Shown here piece by piece: positions 4,374-55,677 of a stretch of DNA of 64,000 nucleotides (position 1 is its first letter; every line of letters starts with the position of its first letter). The translations under genes were made by a program, and so were the position numbers. Below the pieces are notes generated by a model. It did not search any database. It saw only the letters and a list, made by a program, of their open reading frames with translations, and had not been told where the DNA came from. This DNA comes from an uncultured bacterium (lineage in GTDB: Bacteria > Krumholzibacteriota > Krumholzibacteriia > LZORAL124-64-63), in the NCBI GenBank assembly GCA_903912525.1, contig CAIWHK010000025.1:1-64000 (forward strand). Reading direction: 5' to 3'.

Positions 4374-5795
4374 ATGAACGACGACGGGAACACCACCGCC
4401 TCGACCAGGCGCCGCGCCGCGGCGTCCTTTTTCCGCGTCCATGAGCGCAGCGAGATCCTCGCCCTGGCCCTGCCCACCATCCTGACGATGCTCTCGCAGA
4501 CGATGATGTGGACCGTCGACACGGCCCTGCTCGGCCGGGTCAACAGCACCTCGCTGGCGGCAGCCGGGCTGGGCGGTATGATCACCTGGTGCGCCTACTC
4601 CGCGTTCAACAACCTGAGCCGCATCAGCGGCACCTTCGTGGCGCAGGCCCATGGGCGCAATGACGACGAATTGGTCGCCCACTACGCCTGGCAGGGGATG
4701 TACCTGGCCGTGCTGGCGGGGTTGCTGCTGACGTTCCTGGGCTGGCACTGCCGGGTCGCGATGCCCCTGACCCGCAACCCGGCCGACGTGCAGGACCTGA
4801 CCGCCGTCTACATCCGCTGGCGCAGCACGAGCGCCGTCGCCACCCAGGTCGCGTTCGCGGTGACGGGATTCTTTGCCGGACGGCGCGACGTCCGGGTGCC
4901 GATGTGGTGCGGCATCTGGGGCAATGTCGTCAACCTGGTGCTGGCGCTGTGGCTGATCTTCGGCTGGTCGGGCTTCGCGCTCGGCGGCCGCACCTGGCTG
5001 GCGGTGGCGCCGCTGGGCATCAAGGGAGCGGCGATCGCCACCGCAGCCGGCACCTGGGCCAACGCCCTGGCCCTGGTCGGCTTCGCGCTGGCGCCGTCGC
5101 TGCGCGCACGCTACCGCCTCCACCGCCCGCGCCGCCCGGATACGCGAGCCCTGGCCAACCTGGTGCGGGTGGGCGCCCCGGCGGCCGGCGAGAACTTCAT
5201 GGATATGGGCGGATTCGTGATGTTCTCGGTCTTCGTCGGGACCGCGGGCGCCGTGCAACTGGCGGCCAGCCAGATCACGATCCAGCTGCTCAGCTTCTCG
5301 TTCATGCCGCTCTGGGGCCTGACCACGGCCGCCGGCGTACTGGTGGGCAACTGCCTGGGCGCCGGCGAACCCGCTCGCGCCGCGCACTACGGACGACAGA
5401 CTTACAAGCTGGGCGCCTACTACTCGCTGTTCCTGGCCGTGCTGATGGTGTTGCTGCGCGACCGCATCTTCGGGGTCTTCACCAACGACCCGGCCGTGCT
5501 GGCCCTCGGGCCGGCGCTGGCGGTCGCAGCCGCAATCTTCCAGTACTTCGACGGCGTGCGCATGCTCAGCAGCGGCATCCTGCAGGGGGCCGGCGACACG
5601 CGCTATGCGATGGTCGTGACGTTGATCCTCATGTGGGGGATGTTCATCCCGCTGACCTGGTACCTGGTGGTCGCGCAGGACGGCAACGTCGTCGCCGCCT
5701 GGATGGGCGCCAGCGTCTGTTACCTGCTGCAGGGGTGGTTCCTGTGGCGGCGGTTCGCCTCGGGGAAGTGGCGCGCCGTGAAGATCTTCCGCTGA
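4374..5795 (+). CDS. MATE family multidrug/Na+ efflux protein
   Basis: Inner-membrane antiporter of the multidrug and toxic compound extrusion family, 473 residues with about 12 hydrophobic segments arranged as two six-helix halves. The N-terminal half starts ILALALPTILTMLSQTMMWTVDTALLG, a typical MatE opening, and the second half begins near residue 245 (LVRVGAPAAGENFMDMGGF). Substrate cannot be read from sequence. An in-frame GTG at 4335 would add 13 residues (MVLWQALRGRNSG) with no family match, so I prefer the ATG at 4374. It converges on the hybrid kinase gene with only 12 bases between stops. Confidence 0.9.
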   Translation: MNDDGNTTASTRRRAAASFFRVHERSEILALALPTILTMLSQTMMWTVDTALLGRVNSTSLAAAGLGGMITWCAYSAFNNLSRISGTFVAQAHGRNDDELVAHYAWQGMYLAVLAGLLLTFLGWHCRVAMPLTRNPADVQDLTAVYIRWRSTSAVATQVAFAVTGFFAGRRDVRVPMWCGIWGNVVNLVLALWLIFGWSGFALGGRTWLAVAPLGIKGAAIATAAGTWANALALVGFALAPSLRARYRLHRPRRPDTRALANLVRVGAPAAGENFMDMGGFVMFSVFVGTAGAVQLAASQITIQLLSFSFMPLWGLTTAAGVLVGNCLGAGEPARAAHYGRQTYKLGAYYSLFLAVLMVLLRDRIFGVFTNDPAVLALGPALAVAAAIFQYFDGVRMLSSGILQGAGDTRYAMVVTLILMWGMFIPLTWYLVVAQDGNVVAAWMGASVCYLLQGWFLWRRFASGKWRAVKIFR

Positions 5796-5807
5796 CCCGC
5801 GCCCCGG

Positions 5808-8105
5808 TCAGTCGCCGGGCGCCGCCGTCCGACCGGGTACACCCGCGGCAGCCGCGCTGAGTGCCGTCTTGAGCGCCCGCTCGAGGTCGGCGCGATGGAA
5901 CGGCTTGGGCACGAAGGCCAGCCCGGGCCCCAGCTTCACCGGGTCGACAACACCCTGCTCGGCATAACCCGACATGAACACCGCGCGCAGGCCCGGCCGG
6001 ACTTCGGCCAGGCATTCGTGAAGCTCGCGGCCGTTCATGCCCGGCATGACGATGTCGGTCACGAGCAGGCGGAACGCATCCGGGTTCTTCTGGAAGACCT
6101 GCAACGCGGCCAGCGGCGTGGCCGCCGCCAGCACCGTGAAGCCCAGCTTCGCCAGCATCGCGGCGGTGAGTTCCCGCAGTCGCTCGTCGTCCTCGACCAG
6201 GAGCACGGTGCCGCCGCCCGCGACAGCCACGGACGCCTCGCTGGACGGCGCCGGGACCGGCTCGACCAGCGTCCGCGGCAGAAGGATCCGGAAGACGGTG
6301 CCCTTGCCCTGCTCGCTGCTCAGGTCGATGTAGCCACCGTTCTGGTCGACGATGCCCTTGACCGTCGCCAGTCCCAGCCCAGTCCCCTTGCCCGCCGACT
6401 TTGTCGTGTAGAACGGCTCGAATGCGTGCCGGACCGAGGCCGTGTCCATGCCCATGCCGTCGTCGGAGACCGTCAGCATGACGTACTCGCCCGGCTCGAG
6501 GCCCAGGTGCTGCTCGCAGAAGGCGGCATCGGCCTCGCAGTTGGCGGTGCTGATGACCAGGTGCCCGCCGCGCGGCATGGCGTCCCGCGCGTTGGCTGCC
6601 AGGTTCGCCAGGATCTGATCCACCTGAGCAGGGTCGATCAGCGACCGCCACAGGTCCGGCTGCGGGTAGAACTCGAGGGCGATGTGCTCGCCGATCAGCC
6701 GGCCGAGCGTCTTGGCCACCTCGGCCACGCTGTCGTTGATGCAGACCGGGCGCGGCTCGATGACCTGCTTGCGCGAGAACGTCAGCAGCTGCCGCGTCAG
6801 GTCGGCCGAGCGCTGGGCGGCGCGCTCGATCTCGCGGATATCAGCCGCCACGGGGTGGTCCTCGGGCAGCGATTCGCCCGCCATCTCGGCGTAGCCGATG
6901 ATGACGTTGAGCATGTTGTTGAAGTCGTGCGCGATGCCGCCCGCCAGCCGGCCGATGGCCTCCATCTTCTGGCTCTGGCGCGAGCGCTCGTCCACTTCGC
7001 GCAGGCGCGTCACATCGCGCTTGGCGGCGACGAAGTTGGTGATGGTGCCGTCGGCCCCGAACACGGCGGTGATCGTCATGTTCTCGGTGTAGAGCACGCC
7101 ATCCTTGCGCCGGTTGACCAGGTCGCCGCGCCAGGTGCGCCCGGCCACGATCGTGCCCCACATCTCGGCGTAGAACGCATTGTCGTGCAGCCCGCTCTGC
7201 ATCAGGCGCGGATTGCGTCCGATCACGTCACGCAGGGCATAGCCTGTCATCGTCTCGAACGCCTGGTTGACGTAGAGGATGGTGCCGTCGCGGTCGGTCA
7301 TCACGAAAGCGTCGTCGGACTGGTCGATGGCGCGCGTCAGGATCTCGCGGTCCTGCTGCAGTTGCTGCTTCTCGGTCACGTCTTCGATGAGGGACATGAC
7401 GCCGGTCACGCGCCCCGCGTCGTCGAACAGGGGCACGTTGTACCACTCGCAGCGGATGCGGCGACCATCGTTGCGCAGGTTGTCGTTGGTGGAGCGGCGG
7501 CCGCCGGCCGTGCCCAGCAGCTCGGCCCAGACGGCGTCGACATGGTCGCGCGCCTCGGGCGGGACGATGAACCGCGCGTGGCGCCCGAGCGCCTCGTGCT
7601 TTTCCCAGCCGAAGATCCGCCGCGCGGCCTCGTTCCACTCGGTGACCCGGAAGCGGGTGTCCCAGCCGATCACGGCGGCCGGTGACTGCGCGACCACCGA
7701 CTGCAGCAACTGCTTCGACTCGCGCAGGTCCTCCTCGGCGCGCTTCTCGCGCGTGATGTCGCGCACCGCATGGATGACCGCGCGGCGGGCGCCGTGGCCG
7801 CACAGGCGGCCGGTGACAGCCACGCGTCGCGCACGTCCCTCGCGATCGATCAGGCTGGCTTCCCAGGCGGCCCAACCGTTGTCGAGCGCCTGGTGCAGGC
7901 AGGATGTGGGATCGGTGCCGGCGCCGGTGGCGAACAGTGACGGCAGCAGGCGCCCGACCAGGGACGGCGCCTCGGCGCCGCAGAGCGTGGCGAAGGCATG
8001 GTTGACGAAGAGGACGCGGCCGTCGGGATCGGTCACGCACATGCCGCCGGGGGCGCCGGCCATGGCGTCGAGAAGCTCATCGTGGGTGGGTTGCCAGCGA
8101 TCCAT
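5808..8105 (-). CDS. PAS-containing hybrid histidine kinase with C-terminal receiver
   Basis: Cytosolic sensor kinase of 765 residues with no membrane segments. In order: three PAS domains (about 8-120, 135-255 and 258-375; the last two begin [13 protein letters not shown] and [13 protein letters not shown]), a HisKA dimerisation domain with IAHDFNN (phospho-acceptor His393), an HATPase domain with N and G boxes ([34 protein letters not shown]), and a receiver domain (about 635-750) with acidic pair VEDDE and phospho-acceptor Asp684 in TDIVMPG. The HDFNN form is typical of kinases that hand off to a fused receiver. No response regulator with an output domain is adjacent, so the downstream target is unknown. 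Soluble PAS domains suggest cytoplasmic redox, ligand or energy sensing. Confidence 0.93.
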
Positions 8106-46577: not shown

Positions 46578-46640
46578 ATTTCTCTTTTTTCACCCGCCCG
46601 GCGATCACGCCGCGGCCACCCGCCATTTGTGACACGCCCC
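46578..46640 (+). repeat. Dispersed 60-base repeat, copy 1
   Basis: Begins ATTTCTC and ends GTGACACGCCCC. The right 38 bases match copy 2 (49732-49791) at about 84% with no gaps; the left part aligns with a three-base length difference. Both copies face the same way. Confidence 0.7.
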
Positions 46641-46751: not shown

Positions 46752-47771
46752 TTGTTCAGCCGTACCATTGCCACCGTCGCCACGGTTCTCTTGCTGGCAG
46801 GCAACGCCATTGCCGCGCCAGCGCAGGTCGAAGCCCGTGATCCCGGCCCCGACGCCTATCCCGCGCCCAACGCCGTCAGCGATTTCGTCCGCAGGATCTT
46901 CCAGGACACGAAAGGCAACCTGTGGTTCGGCACGAACGGCGACGGGGTGTGCGTCTACAAGCACCCGTCGCTGACGTACTACTCGATCCGGCAGGGGTTC
47001 GGCGGCGACGCGGTCCGGGGCATCGTCGAGGACAAGGACGGCAACGTCTGGTTCGCGACATCCGGCGGCGTCACCCGGTACGATGGGGCGTCCTTCGTGA
47101 ATTTCACCGTCAAAGACGGTCTGAGCCATGACGACGCCTGGTGCATCCTGATCGACCGCAAAGGGACGATCTGGGCGGGCACCTTCGGCGGGGCGTGCCG
47201 CTTCGACGGCAAGCGCTTCGTCCCCTTCGCCTTGCCTCCGGCGGCGATCGACCCGGATCAGGGCGTATCGAGCCCGGAGATGGTCTGGAGCATCATGGAG
47301 GACCGCTCCGGGAACCTGTGGTTCGCCACCGGCGGCGGCGCGTACCGGTACGACGGCACATCGTTGCGCCAATTCTCGGAAAAGGACGGCCTGTGCGACG
47401 ATGCGATCACTGACATCCTGGAAGATCGCGAAGGGAACATCTGGTTCGCGACGTTCTATGACGGCGTCTGCCGTTTCGACGGCACGTCGTTCACCAACGT
47501 GACCGTGCAGGAAGGGCTGCAAGGGACGGAAGTCTGGGATCTCTACGAGGATCGTGCGGGCAATATCTGGTTCCCCGCCGAACACGCCGGCCTGTACCGC
47601 TACGATGGGAAGTCCTTCACGAATTTCACCAAGGAGCAGGGCCTGGACAGCGGCGCCATCCAGAGCGCCTTCGAGGACCGGGACGGCCGCCTCTGGGCCG
47701 GCGGCTACCTGGGGCTGTATCGGCTGGAGGGCCGTTCCTTCATCAAGGTCACCACCGACGGGCCATGGTGA
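46752..47771 (+). CDS. Exported seven-bladed regulator-propeller protein
   Basis: 339 residues: a signal peptide (about 1-22) and then exactly seven blades of about 40 residues, each with VxxIxEDRxGNxWFxTxGGxxRYDGxSFxxF. This is the ligand-sensing 'two-component regulator propeller' that normally forms the periplasmic half of hybrid sensors in gut and soil Bacteroidetes; here it stands alone with no kinase, membrane helix or sorting module. The TTG start at 46752 is supported by AAAGGAG eight bases upstream and by the signal peptide starting there. The stop codon abuts the transposase remnant. Confidence 0.88.
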   Translation: MFSRTIATVATVLLLAGNAIAAPAQVEARDPGPDAYPAPNAVSDFVRRIFQDTKGNLWFGTNGDGVCVYKHPSLTYYSIRQGFGGDAVRGIVEDKDGNVWFATSGGVTRYDGASFVNFTVKDGLSHDDAWCILIDRKGTIWAGTFGGACRFDGKRFVPFALPPAAIDPDQGVSSPEMVWSIMEDRSGNLWFATGGGAYRYDGTSLRQFSEKDGLCDDAITDILEDREGNIWFATFYDGVCRFDGTSFTNVTVQEGLQGTEVWDLYEDRAGNIWFPAEHAGLYRYDGKSFTNFTKEQGLDSGAIQSAFEDRDGRLWAGGYLGLYRLEGRSFIKVTTDGPW

Positions 47772-47906
47772 CCGCGCCGGCGGCACTGCGGGCGGTTGCG
47801 TGGGCTCGCCGATGTGATCGAGGATCCGCTCGATCGTCGGCGCATCGAGCACGAAGGCGATGGTGCGCATCGGCCCGCCGCGCTTCGGGCACTCGTGGAG
47901 AAGCTC
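47772..47906 (-). pseudogene. C-terminal remnant of an IS91-type (Y2) transposase
   Basis: About 45 codons on the minus strand read ELLHECPKRGGPMRTIAF then VLDAPTIERILDHIGEP. This matches my knowledge of the C-terminus of IS91-family transposases, where CPxCGGxMRxIAF is followed by a VIxRILxHLG helix. The second zinc-type Cys is replaced by Arg (CPKR). No upstream catalytic part exists: the frame runs into the end of fadD about 30 bases further on, and downstream it meets the propeller gene end. It is a truncated scrap marking a past transposition. Confidence 0.75.
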
Positions 47907-49702: not shown

Positions 49703-49731
49703 CAGGATTACGGACAGGAAGAATAACCGCT

Positions 49732-49791
49732 ATTTCTCCCCCGACCGCCCGCCGATCACGTCCCGGCCACCCGTCGATAGTGACACGCCCC
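49732..49791 (+). repeat. Dispersed 60-base repeat, copy 2
   Basis: Same orientation as copy 1 at 46578-46640. The shared right part includes CGGCCACCCG and GTGACACGCCCC. It lies in the 120-base gap between the starts/ends of fadD and the GAP-family gene. Confidence 0.7.
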
Positions 49792-49822
49792 GCTCCCGCG
49801 CGTCAAACAACGACAGCTTGCT

Positions 49823-50563
49823 TCAATACCAACCGAGCGCGTTCCAGCCTTCACCAACCAAATACAAGCCGACCAGAAACACTACCCAGGCCATCGCCTC
49901 GTTCGCATTGCGGGACAGTGTCGCCTCCAACCTTGTCAAGACAGGCGCCACATAGTCGTGCAGCCAAAGCCGAGCAGCCAGCAGCAACAACGCTGGTGCG
50001 ATCATCACCAGACAATACCCGAACAGCACCGCACCGCGTCCCGCCAGCGACAACTCCGATACGGTCAAGGCGCCGATCGCGGCCAGATACGGGATCATCG
50101 ATGCAGCCTCGATGACGGCTGCCGTCAACGCAAATACGATGACCGCACCGACAGGGGCCGATGAATCGTTCGCGCGTTCCCGCATCCGCATTTGCAGACT
50201 CGGCCCGGAACGGGCCAGTTTTTCCGCGCGGCGGACGGCGCGACGCTCCTTGCCTGCTTTCGTCCAGGGCTCCATTAGTGTGCCGAGCGCCATCAGCCCG
50301 ATACCGACGACCAGCTGAGCGACCCGTAGCGGTTGTGAGTTTCCGGTCTCATGCATCGCGTCGAGCAGCGTCGACGCTCCGAACAGGAGCGCAATCCCCA
50401 ACAGCAGATAGAACGCGGCCACCGTGCCGAGGAACAACAGGATCCTCCCCGGACGCGGCCGGCCGGGGCTCAACATCAACCACAAGGGGATGAGCAAGGT
50501 GCCGAAGCTGGTGCTATCGATCAGCGCCAGCACGACAAGTGTGGCCAGCAGTTCGATGTTCAC
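49823..50563 (-). CDS. GAP/Sap family membrane protein
   Basis: 246 residues with six hydrophobic segments and an intracellular basic loop (about 100-130, KERRAVRRAEKLARSG). The opening LATLVVLALIDSTSFGTLLIPLWLML and the internal PYLAAIGALTVSELSLAGRG match my memory of the GAP family (peptidoglycolipid/sulfolipid-addressing proteins), best known from actinobacteria, with a role in export of complex lipids. The gene is clearly lower in GC (about 57-60%) than its surroundings, indicating foreign origin. Starts with GTG at 50563, preceded by a GCAGACGCGTCTGC palindrome at 50576-50589. Confidence 0.8.
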   Translation of the reverse strand: MNIELLATLVVLALIDSTSFGTLLIPLWLMLSPGRPRPGRILLFLGTVAAFYLLLGIALLFGASTLLDAMHETGNSQPLRVAQLVVGIGLMALGTLMEPWTKAGKERRAVRRAEKLARSGPSLQMRMRERANDSSAPVGAVIVFALTAAVIEAASMIPYLAAIGALTVSELSLAGRGAVLFGYCLVMIAPALLLLAARLWLHDYVAPVLTRLEATLSRNANEAMAWVVFLVGLYLVGEGWNALGWY

Positions 50564-52118: not shown

Positions 52119-52688
52119 CTAGCGGACCATCAGCATGCGCTTGGTGGCCGTCCAGGAATCGATCGTCAGCCGTGCGTGGTACAGGCCGCTGGCCACCGGC
52201 GCGCCGCGGTCGTCGCGACCGTCCCAGTGCGCGTCGTGGCGGCCGGCCGGCATCGTCGTACCGACCAGGCGCCGGACATGGCGCCCGGCCAGGTCGAAGA
52301 TGTCCAGCGAGACGTCCGCCGGGCGGGCCACGCTGAACGCGAGCGTCGTGCCGCCGCTGAAGGGGTTGGGGTGGTTCCGGGCCAGCGCGTTGGCGAAGAC
52401 GGCGCCTTCGGCTGCCGGATCCTGCGGGTCTGGCGCGACGGCGCTGACGTAGCCGAGGCCGGGCCGCCAGAATCCCTCGACCACGACGAAGCTGCCGCCG
52501 GCGGTGCGGCCCACCACCCCGGCCTCGCCCAGCGTGCCGGCCAGGCGGTAGCTCCCGCCGGCGACGCCGACCGCGCCGCCGGAGAAGGTGGGCTTGCCCA
52601 GGGACGCGGCGCTGCCGGCAGTCGGCAGGGCGGCGGCCAGGGCCGCGAACAGGGCCAGACGGACGACGAGCGCAGGATGTGGCCTCAA
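52119..52688 (-). CDS. Small exported protein with FlgD-like sorting module
   Basis: 189 residues: signal peptide (about 1-29), a short exported domain with GGSYRLAGTLGEAGVV and SFVVVEGFWRPG, which recurs in secreted proteins of similar bacteria, and the FlgD-like C-terminal module from about 105 (HPNPFSGGTTLAFSV, VSLDIFDLAGRHVRRL, AHWDGRDDRG, ending MLMVR). I prefer the TTG at 52688 because GGAGG lies eight bases upstream and the signal peptide then starts MRPHPALVVRLALF; the ATG at 52709 would add MPVEDIA with no ribosome-binding site. First gene of a pair with the fibre-like gene. Confidence 0.85.
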   Translation of the reverse strand: MRPHPALVVRLALFAALAAALPTAGSAASLGKPTFSGGAVGVAGGSYRLAGTLGEAGVVGRTAGGSFVVVEGFWRPGLGYVSAVAPDPQDPAAEGAVFANALARNHPNPFSGGTTLAFSVARPADVSLDIFDLAGRHVRRLVGTTMPAGRHDAHWDGRDDRGAPVASGLYHARLTIDSWTATKRMLMVR

Positions 52689-52793
52689 GGCGATGTCCTC
52701 CACGGGCATGGGGCCGCGGCCGGCAGGACGGCGCCGCCGGGCGCGGATTCGAACATGGTGGCGCTATGGCCGATCCATGACTCTGGGCGCGTT

Positions 52794-52845
52794 CTGCCGT
52801 TGCGGCAGGTGACCCTGCGTTTCCCGGTCGCGCACGACCAGTATA
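52794..52845 (-). promoter_or_regulatory. Promoter and structured leader of the small sorting-module gene
   Basis: On the minus strand TATACT (52840-52845) is a near-consensus -10 box. Immediately inside lies a dyad (GGTCG, CGCA, CGACC at 52826-52839), a fitting operator position. Further in, two hairpins compete for the same bases: GCAGG-TGAC-CCTGC (52805-52818) and CTGCCG-TTG-CGGCAG (52794-52808). No good -35 was found. Confidence 0.5.
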
Positions 52846-52913
52846 CACCAAATCGGACGTTTTTTCTCCTAAATGATCGGTTAGGGCCCGCATTTCCTTC
52901 GAACCGCCGGCGC

Positions 52914-53035
52914 GGACTTGCGCCGGCGCAAGTCCGTTGGAAACGCACATGGGTCTGGCGAGGAACACCTTCGCGAAGGAGAGACTTGCGCCGGCGCATT
53001 TGGGGCGCCTGGGGGAAGGCGCGCCGGCGCAAGTC
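52914..53035. repeat. Cluster of GC-rich palindromes after argH
   Basis: A perfect 22-base dyad centred on GCGCCGGCGC lies at 52914-52935 (arms GGACTTGCGCC and its complement). The same sequence recurs with only its left arm at 52983-52998 (GACTTGCGCCGGCGCA) and only its right arm at 53021-53035 (GCGCCGGCGCAAGTC). The last two form a perfect 15-base-stem hairpin with a 23-base loop. It sits 50-170 bases beyond the argH stop and could terminate argGH, bind a protein or be a REP-like mobile unit. Confidence 0.75.
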
Positions 53036-53085
53036 GAGGATCGATCGGTCGTCGCAACAGACGACCATGTCGGCAGCGGCGTCGC

Positions 53086-54290
53086 TCAGCCCTTCGGCTG
53101 GTCGCGCCGCGCGGCCTCCTCGGCCGCAATCCGCCGGTAGGCGTCCCGGAAGGGCACGCCCTCGGCCACGAGCTTGAGCGCGCGCTCCGTCGCGCGCATT
53201 TCGTCGGTGACGGCGGCGGCGCAGCGGTCGGCGTCGACCTGCAGGCCGCCCAGCACCATCGTCATCGCCTTGAGGCTGTCGAGCGTCGCGGCCACGCCCG
53301 CGAACAGCGGTCCCTTGGTCAGCTGCACGTCGCGGTTGTAGCCGGACATCAGGCCGGCAGTCATCGCCCGCACCTTGCCCTCTTCCCCGGCCACGACATG
53401 GAAGCGCGCGCGCACCAGTTCCAGCACGTCGGGGTTGCGCTTCTGCGGCATCAGCGAGCTGCCGGTGCAAAGCGACGGCGGCAGCGCGACCAGGCCGAAC
53501 TCGCGCGTCGAGAACAGCAAGAGGTCGCTGGCCAGGCGGCTCAGGCCGAGCATCACCTGGCTGCAGGCGGCCAGCAGCAGCGCCTCGACGCGGCCGCGGC
53601 TCAGCTGCGCGTACATCGGGTTGGCCAGCACCTCGGCGAAACCCAGCTCGGCCGCCGTGCCCTCGCGGTCGATGGCCAGCACCGGCACGCCGAAGCCGGC
53701 CGCGGTGCCCAGCGGGCAGCGGTCGACCAGGCGGCGCACCAAAGACAGCAGTTCATGGTCGTCGCGCGCGGCGTCGGCGTAGCTGCCCAGCCAGACGTCG
53801 ACCGTGGTGGGCATCGCGGCCTGCATGTGCGTGTAGCCGGGCAGGGTCACGGCGCCCTGGGCCTGGCGGACCGCGTACAGCGCGTCGAGGTACGCCACCA
53901 GCGCGCCGAGCAGGTGGTCGACCGCGTCCTTCTCCCACAGCCGCAGCGCCGTCAGGACCTGGTCGTTGCGCGAGCGGCCGGTGTGGATCTTCCGGCCGGC
54001 CTCGCCGCAGGTCTTCGTCAGGAAGTTCTCGATGGCGGTGTGGCAGTCCTCGTCGGCCTCGGTGATCGCGAACCGGCCGTGCTCGGCCGACTCGGCGATC
54101 TGCGCGAGGCCCGTCTCGAGGCTCTGCAGCTCCGCATCGTCAAGCACGCCGATGCGCGCGAGCATGCGGGCGTGCGCCAGCGACGCCCGGCAGTCGTAGG
54201 GCAGCAGCTGGCGGTCCAGCACGTGGTCGTCGCCGGCCAGGAACGACTGCAGCCAGGGATCGGGCTCGTCGGCCCGGGTCCAGAGCGTGC

Positions 54291-54294
<4 letters not shown>
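53086..54294 (-). CDS. argH: Argininosuccinate lyase
   Basis: Last step of arginine synthesis: splits argininosuccinate into arginine and fumarate. Fumarase/aspartase superfamily signature is [12 protein letters not shown] near residue 270, with HTGRSRNDQ near residue 104 and TLPGYTHMQ near 150, the latter carrying the catalytic-region His. 402 residues, about 50 shorter than typical ArgH, with the shortening mostly at the C-terminus. ATG at 54294 overlaps the argG stop by four bases (ATGA). The far longer open frame to 55638 is the antisense-free shadow of argG. Confidence 0.96.
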
Positions 54295-55583
<1,289 letters not shown>

Positions 55584-55648
55584 CGGGCCATCCTCCTGCT
55601 GTGGTTCGGTTTCGAACGCCCAAGATAGATTTGGACAATTGATTTGCG

Positions 55649-55677
55649 TCATTGAATGATTTCAGTTATTGATCATT
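55649..55677. promoter_or_regulatory. LysR-type operator between argG and the regulator gene
   Basis: AATGAT (55655-55660), eleven bases, ATCATT (55672-55677): an interrupted dyad with the T-N11-A pattern that LysR-type regulators bind. An overlapping smaller dyad TCATTGAATGA lies at 55649-55659. The region is AT-rich and lies four bases from the regulator start and about 70 from argG, so it can serve autoregulation and argG control. Confidence 0.65.

Follow-up and report, generated by a model that had tools for sequence, protein, structure and literature searches.

A palindrome array behind argH belongs to a genus-specific repeat family and is a candidate binding array for ParB/Noc-like HNH proteins

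Behind the arginine biosynthesis genes argG and argH of an uncultured member of the Krumholzibacteriota lies a cluster of GC-rich palindromes, which raises the question of whether they serve as a terminator, belong to a known class of dispersed repeats or are sites for a DNA-binding protein. The window analyzed here comprises the whole stretch of 64,000 nucleotides (contig CAIWHK010000025.1, positions 1 to 64,000). The earlier note's placement of the array after argGH is right, with both genes located on the minus strand and identified by Pfam: argG at 54291-55652 (Arginosuc_synth, Arginosuc_syn_C) is upstream of argH at 53086-54294 (Lyase_1, 2.2e-47; ASL_C2, 3.4e-4, below the cut-off), with a 4-bp overlap. 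The array sits in the tandem intergenic gap between argH and the next gene downstream, encoding a FlgD_ig domain protein (52119-52709, minus strand). Its complete palindromic site, CGGACTTGCGCC followed by GGCGCAAGTCCG with the core TTGCGCCGGCGCAA, spans 52913-52936, to which no strand is assigned. The earlier note had described a complete dyad of 22 bases; the dyad is present, and its actual size is a perfect 24 bp. Two one-armed copies follow. The first (52983-53002, plus strand) has an intact left arm, GACTTGCGCCGGCGCA at 52983-52998, and a degenerate right arm (3 mismatches to GACTTGCGCCGGCGCAAGTC), while the second (53016-53035, minus strand) has an intact right arm, GCGCCGGCGCAAGTC at 53021-53035, and a degenerate left arm (4 mismatches). 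Over 15 nt, the arms of these two copies are 100% complementary with 23 nt between them, which confirms the previously noticed pairing of a left-arm-only and a right-arm-only copy into a hairpin with a 15-base stem (52983-53035, minus strand, i.e., in the argH-sense transcript). The distance from the argH stop to this hairpin is 50 bp.

The argH-sense (minus) strand of 52890-53060 folds with −84.2 kcal/mol compared to a shuffle mean of −63.7 (z = −5.3), and none of 200 shuffles folds as well. No Rfam family is found at gathering scores anywhere in the window. Comparison with the three congeners (G001, G002 and G003; the own genome is G000) adds to this picture. In G002, 15 out of 15 hairpin pairs survive in the split pair behind argH even though four have changed: three are now G-U on the argH strand, and one G-C pair has become A-U through substitutions on both sides; the three G-U pairs would be broken on the opposite strand. 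The split pair behind argH probably functions as an RNA hairpin, too, once argH is transcribed. The graded decay of identical arms that had been read from the array is right only in part, given that the G002 split pair retains all 15 of its pairs. The 24-bp palindrome is missing behind argH in G002, and in G003 neither the 24-bp palindrome nor the split pair is present; the downstream DNA differs in both.

The palindrome is not confined to this locus. Within the window, all four exact matches of the 15-mer fall in the argH array, and at up to 3 mismatches there are 22 matches against a chance mean of 17.4, which is not above chance, so the signal resides in near-exact copies. A genome-wide count, proposed in the earlier note, yields 225 exact 15-mer matches in the 4.29-Mb genome and 0 for the reversed control (both strands are covered and a full palindrome is counted twice), which rules out a unique occurrence. 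The 15-mer is present in all three congeners (158, 117 and 123 matches) and in none of 34 other relatives. Across 58 genomes in all, the core TTGCGCCGGCGCAA occurs 296 times in the own genome and 224, 141 and 176 times in G001, G002 and G003. Both G015 and G045 have six copies, and none of the other 52 has more than one; the reversed control of the core occurs in none of 57 genomes, the four of the genus included, and twice in G030. A scan of one genome per species (84,980 species, among which the own genome may be absent) places the 20-mer in 69 stretches, 67 of them in the MAGs G001-G003. The remaining two, one in Paraburkholderia lacunae and one in a Flavobacteriaceae MAG, were read as chance or contamination, and these loci (L051, L067) were left out of later counts. 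At up to 3 mismatches, 82 copies are found in 460 kb versus 0 for the reversed control. The site consensus is A(C/G)TTGCGCCGGCGCAA(C/G)T, symmetric and with sharp edges; the 14-bp center is nearly invariant, the would-be loop included, and the flanks are without conservation. The half-site ACTTGCGCC has most of its copies inside palindromes and is hardly enriched apart from them. Some sites are paired at a spacing of 34 bp. A number of palindrome pairs enclose a CTC...GAG inverted repeat, like a compound element (L065:155-208 and 1258-1311, L035, L038; in L065 34 bp apart). The palindromes are a genus-specific dispersed family with about 300 near-identical sites in the own genome. A phage or viral origin was considered and dropped, as 52890-53060 had no match in phages and the 20-mer is absent from viral contigs.

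Other repeats also occur in the window. A 125-bp block at 47767-47891 recurs in the own genome (L122, L109, L124) and, at about 80-90% identity, in relatives; in our reading, its reverse strand resembles the C-terminus of an IS91-type transposase. The block at 49705-49810, upstream of a fadD-like gene, recurs in relatives and partly at 46594-46640 of the window.

The placement of the sites relative to genes was analyzed for 86 own sites at up to 4 mismatches. Twelve are coding (0.030/kb) and one is at an edge; the rest are intergenic, 46 between tandem genes (1.54/kb), 15 between convergent genes (2.05/kb) and 12 between divergent genes (0.66/kb). These calls are approximate, since at least one real gene (SfLAP, 49823-50563) escapes the gene finder, a home-made Markov model, and the densities are inflated so that only their ratios count, because loci were chosen for their palindromes (20 own stretches picked around listed palindromes, and 67 of 69 genus loci fetched for holding a perfect copy). 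The median distance from an own site is 50 bp to the 3' end of a flanking gene and 215 bp to a 5' end. PMC3733652 describes GTAG/CGTC REPs as intergenic elements that lie close to 3' ends where genes run in tandem or converge, and that also occur as dimers. The palindromes share this genomic habit, which favors the reading as classical REP elements, i.e., small palindromes mobilized by a RAYT (Y1) transposase and residing as neutral passengers behind genes. Against it stands a search of 16 genomes for Y1_Tnp (PF01797): G000, G001 and G003 contain no match and G002 a single 62-position match with an internal stop, an absence that rests on MAGs that are 93-100% complete, so that a missed gene is possible. 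The sole full match among the 16 genomes belongs to G014, in which the core count is 0. Moreover, no GTAG/CGTC tag was found at the palindrome end, nor a conserved head or flank, the palindrome is perfectly symmetric, and the site is conserved above its flanks. We therefore hold mobilization by a RAYT to be very improbable. The earlier note had likened the array to REP or protein-binding arrays and had suggested a look for a RAYT gene. Within the genus, only the broken fragment in G002 turned up; the comparison with REPs holds for genomic behavior and fails for membership, and the protein-binding half of the proposal stands best.

The conservation of the sites is that of a DNA sequence. At 13 sites that are outside HNH genes and well within an alignment, a relative has the identical base at 229 of 234 site positions compared to 709 of 988 flank positions; two of these comparisons (from own locus L114) align to one L078 stretch, a repeated unit, and are thus homologous without being orthologous in the strict sense. 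If the two sites called coding are left out, the numbers are 194 of 198 and 582 of 836, and for the five comparisons in which the relative had been picked irrespective of a palindrome they are 89 of 90 and 310 of 380. All 16 own sites spanned by an alignment, those in HNH genes among them, retain a copy at up to 3 mismatches; the loci they were aligned to had mostly been selected for their palindromes, and sites at alignment edges fall outside this count. The 1.5-kb unit just mentioned is repeated in own contig C7 (L114:1103-2639 and 5241-6778) and in G001 (L078) with about 80% likeness, and palindromes lie in or near it.

Alternatively, the sites may be terminators or 3' mRNA hairpins that share their stem sequence by chance, with the link to a protein being secondary. 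Their location behind genes fits this, as do the strong fold of the argH pair and its preservation in G002 despite four changed pairs. T-runs moreover accompany 9 of 22 stand-alone sites in G010 and G004, two genomes with a sister palindrome, and some of these may be ordinary terminators. In the own genome, however, a T-run follows none of 69 sites, and a terminator scan found no terminator-like site in 52400-53400. C to G changes in the arms are one-sided in 20 cases and two-sided in one (own genome). These uncompensated changes, together with the lack of T-runs, indicate that an RNA hairpin is not the general reason for conservation, and selection for a hairpin as a general cause was discarded on the former ground. 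The near invariance of the whole palindrome, would-be loop included, and its presence inside HNH reading frames also disagree with this explanation, which we consider quite unlikely for the family as a whole.

These reading frames belong to a family of HNH endonuclease genes. With fragments included, the four genus genomes contain 11, 8, 5 and 19 matches, several of which are interrupted by stops; none of the matches listed for the own genome lies on the contig of the window (C25). Six of the 12 coding own sites fall in two HNH genes. In 25 of 26 full-length genus copies, a palindrome of at least 14 bp occurs in frame just before the HNH domain; 22 of the same 26 have one after the HNH domain and 14 have one in the first linker. 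Coding copies are located at or near predicted domain boundaries and in the tail. In addition, the core is found within 300 bp upstream in nine of the 26. At the pre-HNH palindrome, Leu is encoded by CTT and Gln by CAA in 26 out of 26 copies, while in the sample these codons make up 3.6% of Leu and 9.5% of Gln codons, respectively. For comparison, the median share of the most frequent codon at conserved residues elsewhere is 0.80, 0.67 and 0.64 (two-, four- and sixfold degenerate). Rare codons being fixed at this position, it is the DNA sequence itself that is kept and not just the peptide LAPAQV. Seven G000 paralogs are 65-73% identical to the first in their alignment and hence are no recent copies. 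About 30-100 bp upstream of the HNH genes (L196-L225), a promoter-like stretch, CTTGCGGTT ... TTCGCTATATTTTCGCC ... CCTCCC, is present in nearly all 26 genus copies, and many other-genus copies have a similar one. The genus paralogs look co-regulated.

What, then, could such a protein do with a palindrome? In the AlphaFold model, a linker joins a helical N-terminal domain to a zinc-ribbon-like segment, which is followed by the HNH domain. The predicted DNA-binding domain covers residues 32-142 of 350 and is preceded by about 30 residues; the pLDDT of the N-terminal domain is 90. In a Foldseek search with this domain, rows 1-28 are all DNA-binding domains of ParB, Noc or Spo0J (best E 0.12). 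In VIA, rows 1-14 are all Noc, ParB, Spo0J or KorB with Z from 8.7 to 5.7, the next, unrelated row having 5.4, and the best match is the Noc DNA-binding domain bound to NBS (rmsd 2.8, 103 of 105 residues), bearing in mind that a Z of 8-9 alone can arise by chance for helical domains. The N-terminal domain is accordingly predicted to have a ParB/Noc/KorB fold. Sequence support for this relation is faint but in line: HTH_ParB matches six of 45 N-terminal domains (best E 0.0052), the own protein scoring 13.6 bits against a cut-off of 22.6, and DUF222 matches 20 of 45 at E up to 1 (best 5.5e-7), with no score for three genus proteins. A sequence search of the PDB with the N-terminal profile returned no ParB and one chance-level match (EnvZ, E 0.91), and the CTP-binding ParB N-domain is absent from the Pfam families of the 45 proteins at E up to 0.01. 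The HNH domain (PF01844) is present in 45 out of 45; C291, C296, H305 and N320 are invariant, C325, C328 and H329 are conserved in at least 90%, and this part matches the nucleases McrA, IscB and Cap5. Among plasmid and phage records, the protein has 21 plasmid and four phage matches, none over 80% of its length, and the best 80 of at least 184 viral relatives all start from residue 241 on, i.e., in the HNH part.

According to PMC7383237, solved ParB domains bind the parS palindrome with two-fold symmetry via alpha4, alpha6 and alpha8; in PMC8429893, the centers are given as CCCGGG for NBS and CACGTG for parS, and Noc sites as scattered around the chromosome. In our preferred reading, to which we assign a probability of roughly 70%, the full palindromes are binding sites of the multicopy chromosomal proteins that combine a ParB/Noc/KorB-type domain, a zinc-ribbon-like segment and an HNH domain; the binding is inferred. 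Binding would involve a symmetric dimer of the HNH protein, in the manner of ParB on parS and Noc on NBS. Its genes contain the putative site within their coding frame and in many cases upstream as well, and extra copies would be tolerated mainly just behind genes, as at argH. For HNH copies such as G000:C8:29772-30818, the putative target is ACTTGCGCCGGCGCAAGT, as against the CCCCCCGGGGGG-type of other genera.

The family extends beyond the genus, with matches in 53 of 58 genomes searched, many of the distant ones being weak. The other-genus loci were either the best match per genome (L226-L251) or hand-picked from the match list (L353-L412). In one inter-domain linker, a perfect palindrome of at least 14 bp is present in 16 of 26 genes versus 15 of 1132 control windows, and one of at least 12 bp in 46 of 60 further genes versus 79 of 1098 windows, the latter windows stemming from the same loci as the 60 genes, with the linker itself included. 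No 12-bp linker palindrome is found in 7 of 25 and 14 of 60 other-genus genes. The palindromes of these HNH genes differ by lineage, CACGTG or CCCGGG centers occur among them, and several recur across their own host genome. Copies of CCCCCCGGGGGG, counted irrespective of the palindrome in the HNH genes of the same genome, number 66 in G042, 60 in G006, 54 in G010, 40 in G017, 35 in G019 and 30 in G004, compared to 0-1 in G000-G003, the genus of the argH palindrome, and at most one for the control pattern; they are sparse in G020 (5) and G043 (7). GTCCACCCGGGTGGAC occurs 19 times in G033, at least six of these in or just before HNH matches, and GTCCAGACGTCTGGAC 11 times in G005. ACCCGCCGGCGGGT is found 11 times in G042, nine times in G019 and four times in G012, where two of the four copies lie at one HNH gene, and at most once in the other 55 genomes. 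In some genomes, the palindrome of the HNH gene thus recurs rarely or not at all. GTCCACACGTGTGGAC occurs once in G013, inside the HNH gene, and the G017 gene that was examined carries CGGGGGGCCCCCCG, the center of which, used as the control pattern for CCCCCCGGGGGG, occurs once in that genome despite its 40 copies of CCCCCCGGGGGG. Twenty stretches around listed copies in G010, G004 and G005 contain no HNH gene, so stand-alone copies exist outside the genus as well. A Rhodococcus erythropolis plasmid (NZ_CP050126.1) has a 16-bp palindrome, CGTCCCCGCGGGGACG, at L352:1435-1450, 93 bp upstream of a DUF222-HNH gene.

If reader and palindrome change together, protein residues near the DNA may be expected to vary with the palindrome. 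Covariation was analyzed on 26 proteins, left after removal of the own genus and of relatives with a like palindrome and after thinning to 60% identity. Five of the 20 top palindrome-associated columns (99, 74, 70, 73 and 98) lie in the alpha4 and alpha6 segments where 1.0 is expected (P = 0.002, hypergeometric), the contact segments having been set by our own mapping to ParB; columns outside these helices rank equally high (126, 229, 113 and 21). Asn70 and Gln74 accompany TTGCGCCGGCGCAA in most of the genus, residue 74 being Gln in 22 of 25 and Leu in three of 25. The same pair is found in the G045 and G015 copies that carry TTGCGCCGGCGCAA, both genomes also being relatives. Residue 103 is Leu or Val in the four ACCCGCCGGCGGGT genes and Arg in L397 (TCCCGCCGGCGGGA); the pattern of residue 103 with base 3 was noticed after the fact, and four other-genus and four genus genes depart from it by combining Arg with G. 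An advance prediction of Asn74 with ACCCGCCGGCGGGT failed in two out of two new genes, both of which have Asp74. Likely DNA-contact residues tend to vary with the palindrome in these alignments, which is supporting, not decisive, and confounded by descent.

It is also conceivable that the sites belong to another DNA-binding protein, with a role in the nucleoid, in repair or in uptake, and that HNH genes merely attract or tolerate palindromes at domain boundaries. Binding by the HNH protein is, after all, inferred, the coding copies do lie at or near predicted domain boundaries and in the tail, and the correspondence between gene palindrome and genome is weak in some genomes. DNA uptake sequences also show genus-specific dialects; among them, single half-sites are enriched, and many are in coding DNA. 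Here, in contrast, half-sites are mostly within palindromes and the coding density is as low as 0.030/kb. In several genera, moreover, the HNH gene carries the very palindrome that recurs in that genome, and the predicted palindrome-binding fold is part of the HNH protein itself. We thus deem another binding protein improbable, and return to the HNH proteins as the likely readers.

How the copies arose is a separate matter. One extension is a homing-type selfish system: the HNH protein would introduce cuts or nicks at palindromes or empty sites, and repair would then spread copies of the palindrome, and occasionally of the gene, to other locations. The 5-19 HNH matches per genus genome, several of them broken by stops, and the conserved HNH residues would suit such a cycle. 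So would the joint presence of gene and repeats, a situation known for rayt genes, which occur together with REPs according to PMC2817692. On the other hand, all 16 own sites with a spanning alignment keep the palindrome with no clean gain or loss, and the divergence of the seven G000 paralogs is not that of recent copies. Although the argH loci of G002 and G003 are without the 24-bp palindrome, their differing adjacent DNA prevents either from being a clean empty site. Sites are stable between the species compared, which speaks against rapid movement, and we would lean against homing as it is formulated here. A host role of the binding proteins (regulation, repair or chromosome maintenance) and a slow, domesticated selfish cycle both fit.

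More broadly, and only tentatively, a nuclease-repeat system may be envisaged in which DUF222-like HNH proteins are palindrome readers of the ParB/Noc type turned nucleases. Lineage by lineage, they would seed or maintain up to hundreds of recognition palindromes in the chromosome and in their own genes, and reader and palindrome would evolve in step. An unrelated nuclease family that is frequent in the lineage and related to DUF222 is tied here to lineage-specific palindromes by position, codon conservation, genome counts and predicted fold. This gives the HNH genes a testable function, offers a series of ParB-type readers that nature has matched to various palindromes, and would explain repeats that otherwise resemble odd terminators. 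Should the same be true for actinobacterial DUF222-HNH genes, a function would be obtained for a large family whose role is unknown. For argH, the binding reading, if true, means that a protein-binding array and a transcript hairpin lie directly behind the operon. To our knowledge, dispersed palindromic repeats of such kind have been tied mainly to RAYT transposases. Among the open-licence PMC papers listed by our searches, no title or abstract opening showed the combination of an HNH nuclease, a ParB/Noc-like reader and lineage-specific repeats.

Palindromic repeats accompanied by a nuclease gene (RAYT/REP) and palindrome-binding ParB/Noc domains are each already known. With the former (the REPtron, as presented in PMC3733652 and PMC2817692), the present system shares small, high-copy palindromes behind genes and a nuclease gene with the same palindrome. 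It differs in its enzyme, an unrelated HNH nuclease instead of a Y1 transposase, in the lack of a GTAG/CGTC head, in that no intact RAYT was found in the genus, and in that the palindromes lie not only next to the gene but also within it. With Noc/NBS and ParB/parS, it would have in common the predicted fold of the DNA-binding domain and palindromic chromosomal sites, and some sister palindromes have the CACGTG or CCCGGG center of parS and NBS. Unlike in Noc and ParB, an HNH nuclease follows and no ParB N-domain precedes the DNA-binding domain, the genus genomes have 5-19 matches each, and sites lie inside the gene itself. DUF222-HNH proteins, also named the '13E12 repeat family', likewise have a C-terminal HNH domain, and DUF222 is matched by 20 of the 45 N-terminal domains (E up to 1), whereas three genus proteins give no DUF222 score. 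Finally, Rickettsia palindromic elements (RPE) are palindromic repeats that also occur in frame within genes, but they are longer and spread over many genes, while the perfect coding copies described here concentrate in one nuclease family.
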